From Robiginitalea sp. SC105 (GTDB taxonomy: Bacteria > Bacteroidota > Bacteroidia > Flavobacteriales > Flavobacteriaceae), in contig NZ_JACLZF010000001.1 in the NCBI RefSeq assembly GCF_014243345.1, forward strand, positions 1,364,001 through 1,428,000: a DNA stretch of 64,000 bases, read 5' to 3'. The position numbers and the translations under genes are program-made. The notes under the pieces were generated by a model. It had not been told where the DNA came from and ran no database searches. It was given only the letters and a program-made list of their open reading frames with translations. Positions 48,670 through 61,499 of this stretch are shown here, one piece after another (positions within the stretch are counted from its first letter, which is position 1; every line of letters starts with the position of its first letter).

Positions 48670-48807
48670 AGGTTTGATCTTTTCGGTTGGTATCGTCTGA
48701 AAAGGACCAGCAATATACAAAGTAAAAGCGGACCCTGAAAGGGAGCTTCCCGAATTAGGGGGGCTAAAAACCCCCTGCTGACCCGTTTTATTTTCCCGCC
48801 AAATGTG

Positions 48808-48815
48808 TACCTTTG
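48808..48815 (+). promoter_or_regulatory. -7 promoter element of metK
   Basis: TACCTTTG matches TAnnTTTG exactly. Transcription should start near 48822, 7 nt before the first helix of the SAM-II-like leader, giving a leader of about 157 nt. Confidence 0.65.
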
Positions 48816-48828
48816 AGCCATTATTTTC

Positions 48829-48900
48829 CAGAGGAAAGATTTGACTGATTGCAACCTCTGATCCGGGGTGTCCCGGGCCTGAAAAAAATGCTAAAGCAGT
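48829..48900 (+). promoter_or_regulatory. SAM-II-like riboswitch (enlarged-loop type) in the metK leader
   Basis: Helix P1 is CAGAGG (48829-48834) with CCTCTG (48855-48860), perfectly paired. Its 20-nt loop contains GATTTGA and ends in TTGCAA directly before the P1 3' strand, as in SAM-II. The conserved GCTAAAG follows at 48890-48896. The pseudoknot is formed by ACTG of the loop (48844-48847) and CAGT (48897-48900). Between P1 and GCTAAAG sits an extra hairpin (CCGGG/CCCGG, 48863-48876), as in the long-loop SAM-II variant of Bacteroidota. The ATG is about 80 nt further on, so how it acts on translation is not obvious. Confidence 0.75.
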
Positions 48901-48978
48901 TTGCTCCGCTCACAGGGCGATGGCCAATTTGCTGTATTGCATGGAAGGTGATCAGTCGGCTGTCTGGCATAAAAATTC

Positions 48979-50241
48979 ATGCGAATGCCCTATTTATTCA
49001 CTTCCGAATCCGTTAGCGAGGGTCACCCGGACAAGGTGGCCGACCAGATCAGCGACGCGTTGCTGGACAATTTCCTGGCCTTTGACGCCGAGAGCAAGGT
49101 AGCCTGCGAAACCCTGGTAACAACCGGGCAGGTGGTACTTGCCGGCGAGGTCAAAAGCCATACGTACGTCGACCTGCAGCAGATTACCCGGGAGGTGATC
49201 AATGCGATTGGATATACCAAAGGCGCCTACCAGTTCAGCGGGGACTCCTGCGGGGTGATCTCCCTGATCCACGAGCAATCCCAGGAAATCAACCAGGGGG
49301 TGGACCGGGGCGAGAAACAGTTGCAGGGTGCCGGGGACCAGGGGATGATGTTCGGCTATGCCACCCGGGAAACCGACAACTATATGCCCCTGGCCCTGGA
49401 TATCGCCCACCGCATCCTCCGGGAGCTCGCCAAACTCCGGAGGGAAGCCATCGACATTCCCTACCTCCGGCCCGATGCCAAGGCCCAGGTGACCATCGAG
49501 TATTCGGACGACCACCGTCCCCTGCGTATCGATACCATTGTCATTTCCACCCAGCACGACCCGTTTGACCCGGACGATGCCCGGATGCTCAAAAAGATCA
49601 AGGAAGACCTGCTGAACATCCTGATCCCGCGGGTGGTGGCCGGACTGCCGGAGCGGTTGCAATCCCTTTTTGACAAGGCGATCAAATACCATATCAACCC
49701 GACGGGGAAATTCGTCATCGGCGGCCCGCACGGGGATACCGGGCTGACGGGACGCAAGATCATCGTGGATACCTACGGGGGCAAGGGTGCCCACGGGGGA
49801 GGGGCCTTCAGCGGCAAGGACCCGAGCAAGGTGGACCGGAGCGCGGCCTATGCCGCCCGGCATGCGGCCAAAAACCTGGTGGCCGCCGGGGTGGCCGATG
49901 AAATCCTGGTACAGGTGAGCTATGCCATCGGGGTAGTGGAACCCACTTCCATCAATGTGACCACCTACGGCACCTCCCGGGTTGACCTTACGGACGGGGA
50001 AATCGGGGCCAAAGTGGCCGAACTGTTCGATATGCGGCCATTCGCCATCGAGGAGCGGCTGAAGCTCCGCAACCCGATTTACCTGGAAACCGCCGCCTAC
50101 GGGCACATGGGCAAGGAACCCCGGGTGGTTTCCAAGGTGTTTGAATCGCCCTATAACGGGCGGGTCACCAAGGAGGTGGAACTCTTCACCTGGGAAAAGC
50201 TGGATGCCGTCCAATCGGTGAAAGAGGCGTTCGGCCTGTAA
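48979..50241 (+). CDS. metK: S-adenosylmethionine synthetase
   Basis: MetK makes SAM from methionine and ATP. It has 420 aa. Signatures are SVSEGHPDKVADQISDALLD (ATP and metal binding), the GAGDQGMMFGYA hexapeptide region, GGPHGDTGLTGRKIIVDTYG and GGGAFSGKDPSKVDRSAAY (P-loop-like and methionine-binding). The in-frame TAA at 48970 rules out a start further upstream; ATG 48979 or 48985 are both possible. It has its own promoter and a SAM-II-like leader, distinct from the SAM-I leaders of the next genes. Confidence 0.97.
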   Translation: MRMPYLFTSESVSEGHPDKVADQISDALLDNFLAFDAESKVACETLVTTGQVVLAGEVKSHTYVDLQQITREVINAIGYTKGAYQFSGDSCGVISLIHEQSQEINQGVDRGEKQLQGAGDQGMMFGYATRETDNYMPLALDIAHRILRELAKLRREAIDIPYLRPDAKAQVTIEYSDDHRPLRIDTIVISTQHDPFDPDDARMLKKIKEDLLNILIPRVVAGLPERLQSLFDKAIKYHINPTGKFVIGGPHGDTGLTGRKIIVDTYGGKGAHGGGAFSGKDPSKVDRSAAYAARHAAKNLVAAGVADEILVQVSYAIGVVEPTSINVTTYGTSRVDLTDGEIGAKVAELFDMRPFAIEERLKLRNPIYLETAAYGHMGKEPRVVSKVFESPYNGRVTKEVELFTWEKLDAVQSVKEAFGL

Positions 50242-50290: not shown

Positions 50291-50317
50291 CCCTGACGTT
50301 CACGTACATACTGACCC

Positions 50318-50447
50318 GTTATCAAGAAAGGTGGAGGGACTAGACCCATTGAAGCCTTGGCAACCCTTCGCCCTGCCGAAGAAGGTGCTACATTCTAACC
50401 CGGACCCGTCCGGAGCCGACAGGCTGCAGCGGGACGGGGCAGATAAC
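50318..50447 (+). promoter_or_regulatory. SAM-I riboswitch (S box) before the metX-AK-HSD gene
   Basis: P1 is GTTATC (50318-50323) and GATAAC (50442-50447). The conserved core is present: AAGAAAGGTGGAGGGA, then GAAGCC and GGCAACC, and GGTGCTACATTCT (the canonical version has TAAATTC), then CAGATAAC. P4 is CCCGTC/GACGGG (50405-50410, 50433-50438). A competing CGGGGC/GCCCCG stem (50435-50440, 50459-50464), with TTCTTTTTA 8 nt later, is a candidate expression platform. High SAM should switch off the downstream operon. Confidence 0.95.
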
Positions 50448-50557
50448 AACCGGGCGATGCCCCGCTTCCACTTCTTTTTAACGCAACCTATAACCTCGGC
50501 CCGCCGCCGATCGTGTCCCCCCGGGATGCGAAAACGGCCAGGTCCTGAACTGAAACC

Positions 50558-53500
50558 ATGGAAGCATCGCAACTGCAACATATACAACTGAGCGCCTATA
50601 CCACCGAAAGCGGGGTATCACAGGCCATTGAGCTGTCCTACCAGCTGTTCGGCAGGCCGCTCCACAGCGCCCCCGTCGTCCTGGTAAACCACGCCCTCAC
50701 CGGAAATTCCAACGTGGCCGGCCCCGATGGCTGGTGGACCTCCCTGGTGGGCCCCGGGAAATGTATTGACACGGATACCTTTACCGTGCTTTGTTTCAAT
50801 GTGCCGGGCAACGGCTACGACGGGTTCCTGATCGAAAACTACAAGGATTTTATTGCCGGCGACATTGCCAGGATTTTCCTGATGGGGCTGGAATACCTGC
50901 AGATACACGAGCTTTTTGCGCTGATCGGCGGGTCCCTGGGGGGCGGGATTGCCTGGGAGATGGCTGCGCTACGGCCCGACCTGGCCAGGCACCTCATCCC
51001 GGTGGCATCCGACTGGAAATCCACGGACTGGCTGATCGCAAATTGCCAGATTCAGGAGCAATTCCTGGTGAATTCCTCCCAGCCCGTGCACGACGCACGC
51101 ATGCACGCCATGCTGTGCTACCGCACCCCGGAGTCTTTCAAGCAGCGCTTCCAAAGGAGCACGGACCAGGCCTCACGACTGTTCAACGTGGAGAGCTGGC
51201 TGCTCCACCACGGCAAGAAGCTGCAGGAGCGTTTCCAACTGGCAGCCTACAAGCTGACCAACCAGCTGCTGAAAACCATAGACATCACCCGCCGGGGGGA
51301 GGAAGCCTTCCGCCAGCTGCAGCAGAGCGGCACCCATATCCATATCATCGGCGTGGATTCCGACCTGTTTTTTACGGCAGCCGAAAACAAGGAAACCTAT
51401 AAGCAACTCGCCCAGGTAAACACGAACGTCACCTATGGGGAAATCCATTCGGTCCATGGGCATGACGCCTTCCTGATCGAATTCGGCCAGATGGAGGAAC
51501 TGCTGCGGGACGTCTTTGGCGGGAACCGGGCCAAACCCCTTAAGGTGCTTAAATTCGGGGGCAAGTCCCTGGCCAACGGGGAGGGCATCAGCCGCGTTCT
51601 CGATATCATTTCGGGCCGGTATGCCGGGGGGGAACGCCTGGCCGTGGTGCTCTCGGCCCGGGAAAAGGCCACGGACCAGCTGGAGGCGCTCCTGCAGCTC
51701 GCTTCGGATGGCAAGGACTACAAGGAGGCCTTTGACCGTTTTGAGAAATACCAGCGGCATACCTTTTCCAATGTCAGCCTGGGGGATTCCTTCGATGCGC
51801 TTGCCAGGTTGCTGGAAGGGGTGCGCCTGCTGGGGGATTACAGCCCCAAGATCAGGGACCAGGTACTGGCCTTCGGGGAGCTGATTTCGGCCCGCCTGGT
51901 TACCAAACTGCTGATCGGGCGGGGGGTGAAGGCGGAGCTGGTGGATGCCCGGGACCTGATCCGTACGGATTCCGGGTTTGGCAATGCCCAGGTGCTCGAC
52001 GAGGTTTCCCGTGAGAATACCATCCGTTACTTTTCCGCACTCCCCGCGGACACGGTGGCGGTGGTGACCGGCTTTATCGCCTCCAACGCGCTTGGGGAGA
52101 CCACCACTCTGGGCCGGAACGGCAGCAACTACACGGCTTCCCTCCTGGCCAACTACCTCAACGCAGGGGAGTTGCAGAATTACACCCATGTAAACGGGAT
52201 ATTCACCGCCAACCCGGAACTTGTCCCGGAAGCCCAGCGCATAGCGCAGCTCTCCTACGCCGAGGCCAATGAACTGGCAAATTTCGGGGCGACCATCCTG
52301 CACGCCAAGACCATCATACCGCTGCTGGAGAAAAACATCCCCCTGCGTATCCTGAATACCTTTGACAATGACGGGGAGGGGACGCTGATCAGTGCCAGTT
52401 CCAGTCGCGAGGGGATCCGTTCCCTTTCCGTCATCGAGCACGAGGCGCTGATCCACCTCGAGGGCCGTGGATTGCTCGGGAAGGTCGGGGTGGATGCCCG
52501 GATTTTCCGGGCGCTCGGGCAGAGCGGTATCAGTGTGGGGATCATTTCCCAGGGCTCCTCCGAGCGCGGCATCGGCCTGGTGGTGAAGGCGGAAGCGGCA
52601 CAGCGCGCCCGCCTTGCCCTGGAAGCGGAATTCGAGGAGGATTTCCGCCGGCAGGACATCACCCGGATCCACATTACCTCCGATGTTTCGGTCATCTCCA
52701 TCGTCGGGCAGGACCTGAGCACCTTCCACAAACCCTATAACGCCCTGATCCGCAACCAGGTAGTCCCCCTGTTGTTCAACAACACGGTTACCGGGAAAAA
52801 CGTAAGCCTGGTGGTGCGCAAGGCAGATATGCTCAAGGCGCTGAACGTCATCCACGGGCAGATCTTCGGCATCAGCAAGAAGATCAACCTGGCCATTTTC
52901 GGGATCGGTACCGTAGGCAGCACGCTGATGGACCAGCTGCTGGACTCGGCTGCCAAGATCGAGGCCCGAAAAGGCATTCACCTGAACATCTTTGCGGTGG
53001 CCAACTCCCGCCGGCTGCTGCTCGACAGGACGGGTATTTCAGATGACTGGAAATCCCGCATGGATGAAGCCGACGACGGCTATGAGCTCTCCGCCCTGTT
53101 CGATTATGCCCGGGCGCACCACCTGGAAAACCTGATTGCCGTGGACAATACGGCCAGCGAGGCATTCGTGGCCCGGTATTTCGACTTTGTCGAGAACGGT
53201 TTTGACCTGGTTTCCTCGAATAAGATTGCGAATACCCTGGGCTACAACTACTACCGCCTGCTCCGCGAGGAACTGGCGGAATACCAGAAACAATACCTTT
53301 ATGAGACCAATGTCGGGGCCGGCCTGCCGCTGATCGACACCATAGCGCTGCTGCACCTCTCGGGGGAGAACATCACCCGGATCCGAGGGGTTTTCTCCGG
53401 TTCCCTCAGCTATATCTTTAACACCTTCTCCAGGGGGGAAACCGCATTTTCCCAATGTGTGCGGGACGCCGTGCAAAAAGGGTTTACGGAGCCCGACCCC

Positions 53501-53962
53501 CGGGAAGACCTATCCGGTAATGACGTGGGGCGCAAGCTCCTCATCCTGGCCCGGGAACTCGACCTGCAGAACGAGTTCGGGGACATCGCCATCGAAAACC
53601 TGATACCGGAGGAAATGCGGGGCGTAAGCAGGGAAAACTTCCTGGGATCCCTGGGGGACCTGGACGCCCGGTTCAATGCCATCCGGGACAAGCAGCAGCC
53701 CGGCCACGTCCTCCGTTACGTGGGGGAACTGTCAGGGGATCTGCAGCAGGACAAGGGGATCCTGGAGGTCAAGCTGGTTTCCGTACCCGGGGACAGCCCG
53801 CTGGGGCAGGTGCGGGATGCGGACTCCCTGATTGAGATTTATACCGAATCCTACGGGAAGCGGCCACTGGTCATCCAGGGGGCCGGTGCCGGAGCAGCCG
53901 TTACCGCCCGGGGGGTATTCGGCGATATTTTGCGCATAGCCGAAAAAGGATATGCCGTTTAA
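50558..53962 (+). CDS. Trifunctional homoserine O-acyltransferase (MetX-like) - aspartokinase - homoserine dehydrogenase
   Basis: Three enzymes in 1134 aa. Residues 1-322 are a MetX-type alpha/beta hydrolase acyltransferase: Ser126 in GGSLGGG, Asp269 in DSDLFF and His302 in VHGHDAF form the triad. Residues 328-770 are aspartokinase, starting VLKFGGKSLAN, with GRNGSNYTASLLANYL and an ACT region. Residues 775-1134 are homoserine dehydrogenase: the NAD(P) motif FGIGTVGSTL at about 780, GVFSGSLSYIFNTF and GNDVGRK. It lacks only aspartate-semialdehyde dehydrogenase to go from aspartate to acylhomoserine. A SAM-I riboswitch controls it and metZ follows after 18 nt. Confidence 0.93.
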   Translation: MEASQLQHIQLSAYTTESGVSQAIELSYQLFGRPLHSAPVVLVNHALTGNSNVAGPDGWWTSLVGPGKCIDTDTFTVLCFNVPGNGYDGFLIENYKDFIAGDIARIFLMGLEYLQIHELFALIGGSLGGGIAWEMAALRPDLARHLIPVASDWKSTDWLIANCQIQEQFLVNSSQPVHDARMHAMLCYRTPESFKQRFQRSTDQASRLFNVESWLLHHGKKLQERFQLAAYKLTNQLLKTIDITRRGEEAFRQLQQSGTHIHIIGVDSDLFFTAAENKETYKQLAQVNTNVTYGEIHSVHGHDAFLIEFGQMEELLRDVFGGNRAKPLKVLKFGGKSLANGEGISRVLDIISGRYAGGERLAVVLSAREKATDQLEALLQLASDGKDYKEAFDRFEKYQRHTFSNVSLGDSFDALARLLEGVRLLGDYSPKIRDQVLAFGELISARLVTKLLIGRGVKAELVDARDLIRTDSGFGNAQVLDEVSRENTIRYFSALPADTVAVVTGFIASNALGETTTLGRNGSNYTASLLANYLNAGELQNYTHVNGIFTANPELVPEAQRIAQLSYAEANELANFGATILHAKTIIPLLEKNIPLRILNTFDNDGEGTLISASSSREGIRSLSVIEHEALIHLEGRGLLGKVGVDARIFRALGQSGISVGIISQGSSERGIGLVVKAEAAQRARLALEAEFEEDFRRQDITRIHITSDVSVISIVGQDLSTFHKPYNALIRNQVVPLLFNNTVTGKNVSLVVRKADMLKALNVIHGQIFGISKKINLAIFGIGTVGSTLMDQLLDSAAKIEARKGIHLNIFAVANSRRLLLDRTGISDDWKSRMDEADDGYELSALFDYARAHHLENLIAVDNTASEAFVARYFDFVENGFDLVSSNKIANTLGYNYYRLLREELAEYQKQYLYETNVGAGLPLIDTIALLHLSGENITRIRGVFSGSLSYIFNTFSRGETAFSQCVRDAVQKGFTEPDPREDLSGNDVGRKLLILARELDLQNEFGDIAIENLIPEEMRGVSRENFLGSLGDLDARFNAIRDKQQPGHVLRYVGELSGDLQQDKGILEVKLVSVPGDSPLGQVRDADSLIEIYTESYGKRPLVIQGAGAGAAVTARGVFGDILRIAEKGYAV

Positions 53963-61256: not shown

Positions 61257-61280
61257 CACCAGTTCATTGCCAGCCTGCAA

Positions 61281-61416
61281 GTTATCAAGAAAGGTGGAGG
61301 GATTAGACCCAGTGAAACCTTAGCAACCCTTTCCCTTTTAACGGGCAAAGAAGGTGCTACATTCTATCCGGCAACCGGCCCTGTATAGGGCGCGGTGCAC
61401 TGCCAGGACAGATAAC
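61281..61416 (+). promoter_or_regulatory. SAM-I riboswitch (S box) before split metH
   Basis: P1 is GTTATC (61281-61286) and GATAAC (61411-61416). The conserved core is present: AAGAAAGGTGGAGGGA, TTAGACCC, AGCAACC, GGTGCTACATTCT and CAGATAAC. It is close in sequence to the copy at 50318-50447 and shares its TACATTC variant. In the 83 nt to the ATG I see a small AGCC/GGGCT hairpin but no clear intrinsic terminator, so control may be translational. Confidence 0.95.
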
Positions 61417-61499
61417 CAACCAGCCTTCAGGGCTATTGTTACCTTTCCTTTCTCGATGCCGATTTCCCGGCCCGGTATGCCCGGGGACCGCCGACTGCC

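Follow-up and report, generated by a model that had tools for sequence, protein, structure and literature searches.

SAM-II riboswitches are known for hiding the Shine-Dalgarno site, and how the class works in Bacteroidota, which are reported to be without such sites (PMC6847099, in the part available), is a practical question. The metK leader of Robiginitalea sp. SC105 raises this question directly: in the 64,000-nucleotide stretch of its DNA that we analysed (the window), a SAM-II-like aptamer ends far ahead of the start codon that it would control. We consider it probable that a riboswitch of the SAM-II long-loop type in this leader represses metK at plentiful SAM, and that it would do so indirectly, through a strand-exchange platform.

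A cmscan search of the entire window against Rfam gave a match to the SAM-II long-loop model RF01726 at 48825-48904 on the plus strand (65.0 bits, E 2.9e-10; the gathering score, the curated cut-off, is 44 bits) that covered all model positions from 1 to 60; a permissive scan of 48700-49100 yielded three further matches, all weak and each far under its own cut-off. Every upper-case consensus position of RF01726 was retained in the alignment, and the conserved core letters GATTTGACTGATTGCAACC and AAAATGCTAAAGCAG were present in the window aptamer and invariant in all nine leaders of the genus. Reading by coordinate placed each element of the fold where it had been predicted by eye. P1 consists of 6 bp between CAGAGG (48829-48834) and CCTCTG (48855-48860), the L1 segment (48834-48852) includes the 5’ strand of P2, and the L1 motifs GATTTGA and TTGCAA lie at 48838-48844 and 48849-48854. 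The P2 pseudoknot joins ACTG (48844-48847) to CAGT (48897-48900) by 4 bp; the conserved 3’ aptamer strand with the bases following it, which we call strand 1 (48888-48903), carries GCTAAAG (48890-48896) and this CAGT. The inserted hairpin (48862-48877; 6 bp with arms at 48862-48867 and 48872-48877, and a 4-nt loop) was matched in folding by 2 of 100 base shuffles. Such insertions are common, the stretch from P1 to the core being at least 22 nt in 54 of 149 leaders (median of the 149, 9 nt), and in 49 of these 54 the fold was equalled by no more than 5 of 100 base shuffles. The class assignment made by the original prediction thus withstood the covariance-model search proposed as its check. Homologous leaders likewise keep the motif: it was recovered from 187 of the 199 family genomes searched (182 over the cut-off), from 9 of 10 genomes of the genus and from 15 of 118 genomes spread across the phylum. 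Given its presence in 187 of the 199 family genomes, we take the window aptamer to be an ordinary and not a rare member of the described class. On the minus strand, a terminator-like hairpin followed by T-rich sequence (48894-48911) overlaps the 3’ end of the aptamer; one was found against 0.5 expected from shuffles, and it is probably due to chance.

Reading of the upstream sequence revealed a promoter box of the Bacteroidota type TAnnTTTG (TACCTTTG, 48808-48815, plus strand). Because this box is placed at -12 to -5 (PMC9723704, available portion), transcription would start near 48820, i.e. 9 nt 5’ of P1, a value similar to the 7 nt originally predicted. No match to a sigma-70-type promoter was found in 48700-49100. 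The presumed target gene was confirmed as metK, encoding SAM synthetase (methionine adenosyltransferase), by a match to NCBIfam TIGR01034 (502 bits, cut-off 309) directly 3’ of the aptamer (48985-50241, plus strand). The CAGT of the aptamer ends 84 nt before the metK ATG at 48985. This distance had been flagged as odd at the outset, and it is a general property, since the aptamer-to-ATG gap measured 41-112 nt in 148 metK leaders with a median of 63.5. The doubt about the distance became the best lead, as the gap is predicted to hold a conserved anti-aptamer platform.

The leaders compared were taken from the better-scoring matches, representing the best 147 of the 187 matching family genomes, the other 40 being weaker matches; L040 was left out as a duplicate fetch of the L039 site. 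Among the 154 loci fetched, 152 had a metK match and 150 had an aptamer detectable by pattern search within 450 nt upstream of it. Removal of L017 and L127 (no metK match), L098 and L139 (aptamer visible and missed by the pattern) and L005 and L011 (start not placed) left 148 leaders, and the L1 pattern was passed by 145 or 143 of these, depending on the test. Three small genomes (G004, G052 and G081) carry two SAM-II matches each. The one fetched from G004, L017 (3060 bases), has no adjoining metK match, and therefore a different gene may be controlled by a switch of this kind.

SAM-II is not the only SAM riboswitch class in the window. No more than 12.6 kb from the SAM-II aptamer are two SAM-I riboswitches (RF00162), at 50316-50449 (63.2 bits) and 61279-61418 (66.9 bits). 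The part of a 2007 survey available to us records no species with both classes (PMC2258182); the two were found together in 61 of 80 family genomes searched for both. Behind a SAM-I riboswitch, a single ORF of 1134 aa (50558-53962) fuses a part resembling homoserine O-acetyltransferase (MetX; residues 11-322, under the cut-off of the model) to aspartate kinase/homoserine dehydrogenase I (residues 329-1130, 760 bits, cut-off 726).

Folding of the window leader paired the aptamer loop GACTGATTGC with a downstream GTGATCAGTC; the overall stability of this leader is unremarkable (z -1.17). The downstream strand, which we term the anti-L1 element (48948-48968, plus strand), is predicted to form 17 pairs with 48834-48852, its L1 partner in the proposed SAM-free fold. 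The pairing energy of the window P1/L1 segment with the gap was -19.8 kcal/mol against -14.1 for dinucleotide shuffles (rank 3 of 100), and in 106 of the 148 leaders at most 5 of 100 such shuffles were as good (mean z -2.7). Leaders of relatives follow the same pattern in other letters: an aptamer GGATTTGAC is often accompanied by GTCAAATCC in the gap, and an aptamer AGATTTGAC likewise often by GTCAAATCT. Comparison of each leader's own L1 with L1 segments swapped between genomes gave z -12.1 for 143 leaders, a value reached by 0 of 1000 permutations, and the swap test on 92 dereplicated leaders gave 0 of 2000. The controls stood at z +0.27, +0.21 and -0.40 for shuffled gaps, +0.3 for the upstream region and -1.4 (78 of 1000) for coding sequence. 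One variable pair was counted wherever the gap contains CAAATY or CAGATY, which is so in 88 of 148 leaders; it was A-T in 37, G-C in 22, G-T in 5, A-C in 5 and another combination in 19. When changes were placed on a metK tree comprising 59 leaders, the base preceding GATTTG had changed 10 times, and in 7 of these cases the opposite base made a matching change on the same branch, against 1.85 expected (0 of 5000 simulations); A to G went with T to C four times and G to A with C to T three times. This tree kept leaders with GATTTG, a gap CAAATC or CAGATC, A or G before the first motif, C or T after the second and at least 240 coding bases, so that leaders with other letters at the tested pair were excluded. 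From these tests, we take the anti-L1 pairing to be real across the family. Between the 3’ end of the element and the ATG, the median distance is 20 nt (5-95%: 13-32).

Two further observations concern these gaps and the reach of the element. TCGTCAAATC occurs in 34 and CGTCAAAT in 54 of the 148 gaps (e.g. L063), and the bases 5’ of GTCAAAT are conserved in the gaps with no plain explanation in the L1 pairing. Further, 18 metK leaders, several of them from Bacteroidales (L179, L184, L185, L188, L197 and others), carry a SAM-II-like motif in which P1 starts with GTGG and the core reads GCTAAAA. In these leaders from Bacteroidales and a few others, anti-L1 reached rank 5 of 100 or better in 5 of 18 by base shuffles only, and because the complementarity is weak there, their expression platform may differ. 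Anti-L1 was plain in L192, the leader of a Chryseobacterium MAG (0 of 100 base shuffles).

The other half of the pseudoknot has a counterpart as well. In the SAM-free fold that we propose, strand 2 (48925-48942, plus strand) would pair with strand 1 at -11.2 kcal/mol. When each leader's own strands were compared with swapped ones, with no bases shared, z was -8.9 in the 133 of 143 leaders that could be used and -6.5 in 85 of 90 dereplicated leaders, with shuffled controls at -1.2 and -0.5. Taken leader by leader, the pairing of strand 1 with the gap is weaker: only 32 of 148 leaders surpass shuffles at 5% (mean z -0.98), and the window reached only rank 13 of 100. The anti-L1 and strand 2 helices exclude the SAM-bound pseudoknot because both use bases needed by P1 and P2, and therefore strand exchange appears to be the mechanism of these SAM-II riboswitches: their downstream strands are complementary to the aptamer, and the pairing is mutually exclusive with the bound fold and covaries family-wide.

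Within the genus of the window the evidence is less ample. L1 against the gap reached rank 5 of 100 or better in only 5 of the 9 genus leaders, with the window at 3 and L032, L035, L037 and L039 at 38, 10, 12 and 36, respectively. The two helices formed in 89% of cells over the nine leaders compared with 24-44% when slid, the 89% being biased upward since the structure was read from the same sequences. Covariation within the nine leaders did not go beyond shuffles (215 of 500 reached the score), and we dropped genus-only covariation as support, there being too little variation among them.

How the freed strands would lower metK expression we infer as follows. During transcription of the leader the aptamer would emerge first. 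With SAM bound, the pseudoknot would persist and strand 2 and anti-L1 would stay free; in the window, the freed strands could then pair around the start codon and lower metK translation. With SAM scarce, anti-L1 and strand 2 would pull the aptamer apart and would themselves be tied up, leaving open the short A-rich stretch before the ATG, so that metK would be translated. Such a platform would need no Shine-Dalgarno site to hide. Start regions in Flavobacterium johnsoniae are marked by reduced structure from -20 to +20 (PMC6847099, in the part available), and therefore masking of this region would matter.

In the window, two strands might mask the start: AGGGCG (48914-48919, plus strand), which could pair with 48986-48991, and TTGCATGGA (48937-48945, plus strand), which overlaps strand 2 and could pair with 48976-48984. 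Together the two predicted helices enclose the ATG at -16.7 kcal/mol, which places them at rank 0.03 against 200 base shuffles. Across leaders, covariation between the freed strands and the start region was modest, with z -4.4, and -3.4 (3 of 2000) after dereplication, with controls of -0.7 and -0.95 for a shuffled start region and -0.2 and -0.3 for coding sequence; leaving out the start codon and the first 12 coding bases gave -3.4, and -1.4 (143 of 2000) after dereplication. Predicted openness from -12 to +12 was not reduced by the freed strands relative to shuffled strands (0.550 against 0.560, p 0.30, lower in 70 of 143 leaders; 0.55 against 0.54 in the window), and from -20 to +15 the full leader and the gap alone were nearly equal (0.571 and 0.576), a comparison made with no shuffle control. 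For freed anti-L1 and the upstream gap, pairing showed no signal (rank 0.06 or better in 5 of 67; z 0.05), nor did it for the gap and the first 60 coding bases (z 0.03). Start-codon masking as the sole rule was rejected: a gap strand beat shuffles at 5% in only 20 of 148 leaders, or in 24 of 143 for a second form of the test, and openness was unchanged against shuffles. The predicted masking is plain in L003 and L057 and reaches only rank 0.065 in L069; in L057, L069 and, by eye, in L156 (Euzebyella saccharophila), an ATG-adjoining TAAAGAAGTAT faces the second element. We thus retain start masking as the presumed step for the window and for the lineages in which it is plain.

The same anti-aptamer strands could serve a different output. 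If the freed gap were a loading site for Rho, SAM would end transcription early instead of blocking translation. The weakness of start masking in the accessibility test speaks for this, as do the freed segments, in which C exceeds G over 143 leaders (0.247 and 0.141 in the strand 2 part, 0.285 and 0.125 in anti-L1), and the lack of an intrinsic terminator in all 143 gaps. However, such C-richness is also expected of the complement of a purine-rich aptamer, and in the window's own gap G exceeds C (24 and 18 of 84). We regard Rho as an unlikely explanation, if the least unlikely of the rivals. Attenuation by an intrinsic terminator, which is predicted for many proteobacterial SAM-II leaders and reported to be common for the class in α- and β-Proteobacteria (PMC2258182 and PMC1273637, each in part), is hardly credible here: a hairpin of -5 kcal/mol or better followed by T5 was present in 0 of the 143 gaps, and 48700-49100 has no terminator-like site on its plus strand.

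Classical direct occlusion would have the SAM-bound P2 itself block the ribosome and the gap be mere filler. A 2024 review groups SAM-II in this way (PMC10907184, available part), yet no ribosome site lies inside or beside P2 in the window, where P2 is 84 nt from the ATG. The gaps of 41-112 nt in the 148 leaders put P2 outside the -20 to +20 region known from F. johnsoniae (PMC6847099, in part), and a gap that covaries with the aptamer is not filler; we regard direct occlusion as very improbable. That the aptamer has degenerated and lost SAM binding, or that the match arose by chance, we find as hard to credit as attenuation. Against such a view stand the score of 65 bits with all upper-case consensus positions kept, and the recurrence of the motif in 187 of the 199 family genomes and, by pattern search no more than 450 nt ahead of a metK match, in 150 of the 154 loci. 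The boldest reading is that SAM-II riboswitches of Flavobacteriaceae work by refolding and not by direct occlusion: at low SAM, two strands that co-evolve with the aptamer would each capture one half of the pseudoknot and, once freed by SAM, would close a start region devoid of a Shine-Dalgarno site. Taken with all its parts, we judge this reading to stand at an even balance. If true, refolding would add a third expression platform to those described for SAM-II, common to much of a bacterial family.

Compared with known systems, the aptamer is familiar. SAM-II long loops were listed for Bacteroidetes and marine samples in 2010 (PMC2864571, available part), and the RF01726 model shares P1, L1, the A-rich strand, the GCTAAAG core and P2 with the window aptamer; its 60 positions end at the aptamer, whereas strand 2 and anti-L1 of the window lie beyond them and the hairpin appears as an insertion only. 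The metX-type SAM-II (PDB 2QWY) has an H-type pseudoknot aptamer as here, but its ribosome site is within P2, which in the window metK leader ends 84 nt before the ATG (PMC10907184, in part). The metA SAM-II of Sinorhizobium meliloti, which controls translation at a distance, acts on a start codon via an expression platform, as we propose for metK; there, the predicted effect is to make a Shine-Dalgarno sequence inaccessible, and two AUGs have a terminator between them, unlike the metK leaders, which have two anti-aptamer strands and in which no terminator was found (PMC9373788, available part). Terminators accompanied SAM-II most often in α- and β-Proteobacteria in the 2007 survey (PMC2258182, in part). 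We found no description of a SAM-II platform of the present kind in the literature covered, the supplementary SAM-II examples of PMC2864571 lying outside this coverage. The metK platform fits none of direct occlusion, a terminator or the S. meliloti metA type. The covarying anti-aptamer elements offer a concrete, testable answer to how SAM synthetase may be controlled in this family, and they extend the described SAM-II motif toward the start codon, naming the exact pairs. What is known here is thus the aptamer class; the platform appears to be a variant, supported by family-wide covariation, and the repression step we infer. Translational riboswitches of the anti-aptamer (strand-exchange) type have aptamer and anti-aptamer helices that are mutually exclusive, as would be the case here, and the metK leaders differ from such riboswitches in general in that two separate anti-aptamer strands would face the two halves of one pseudoknot.
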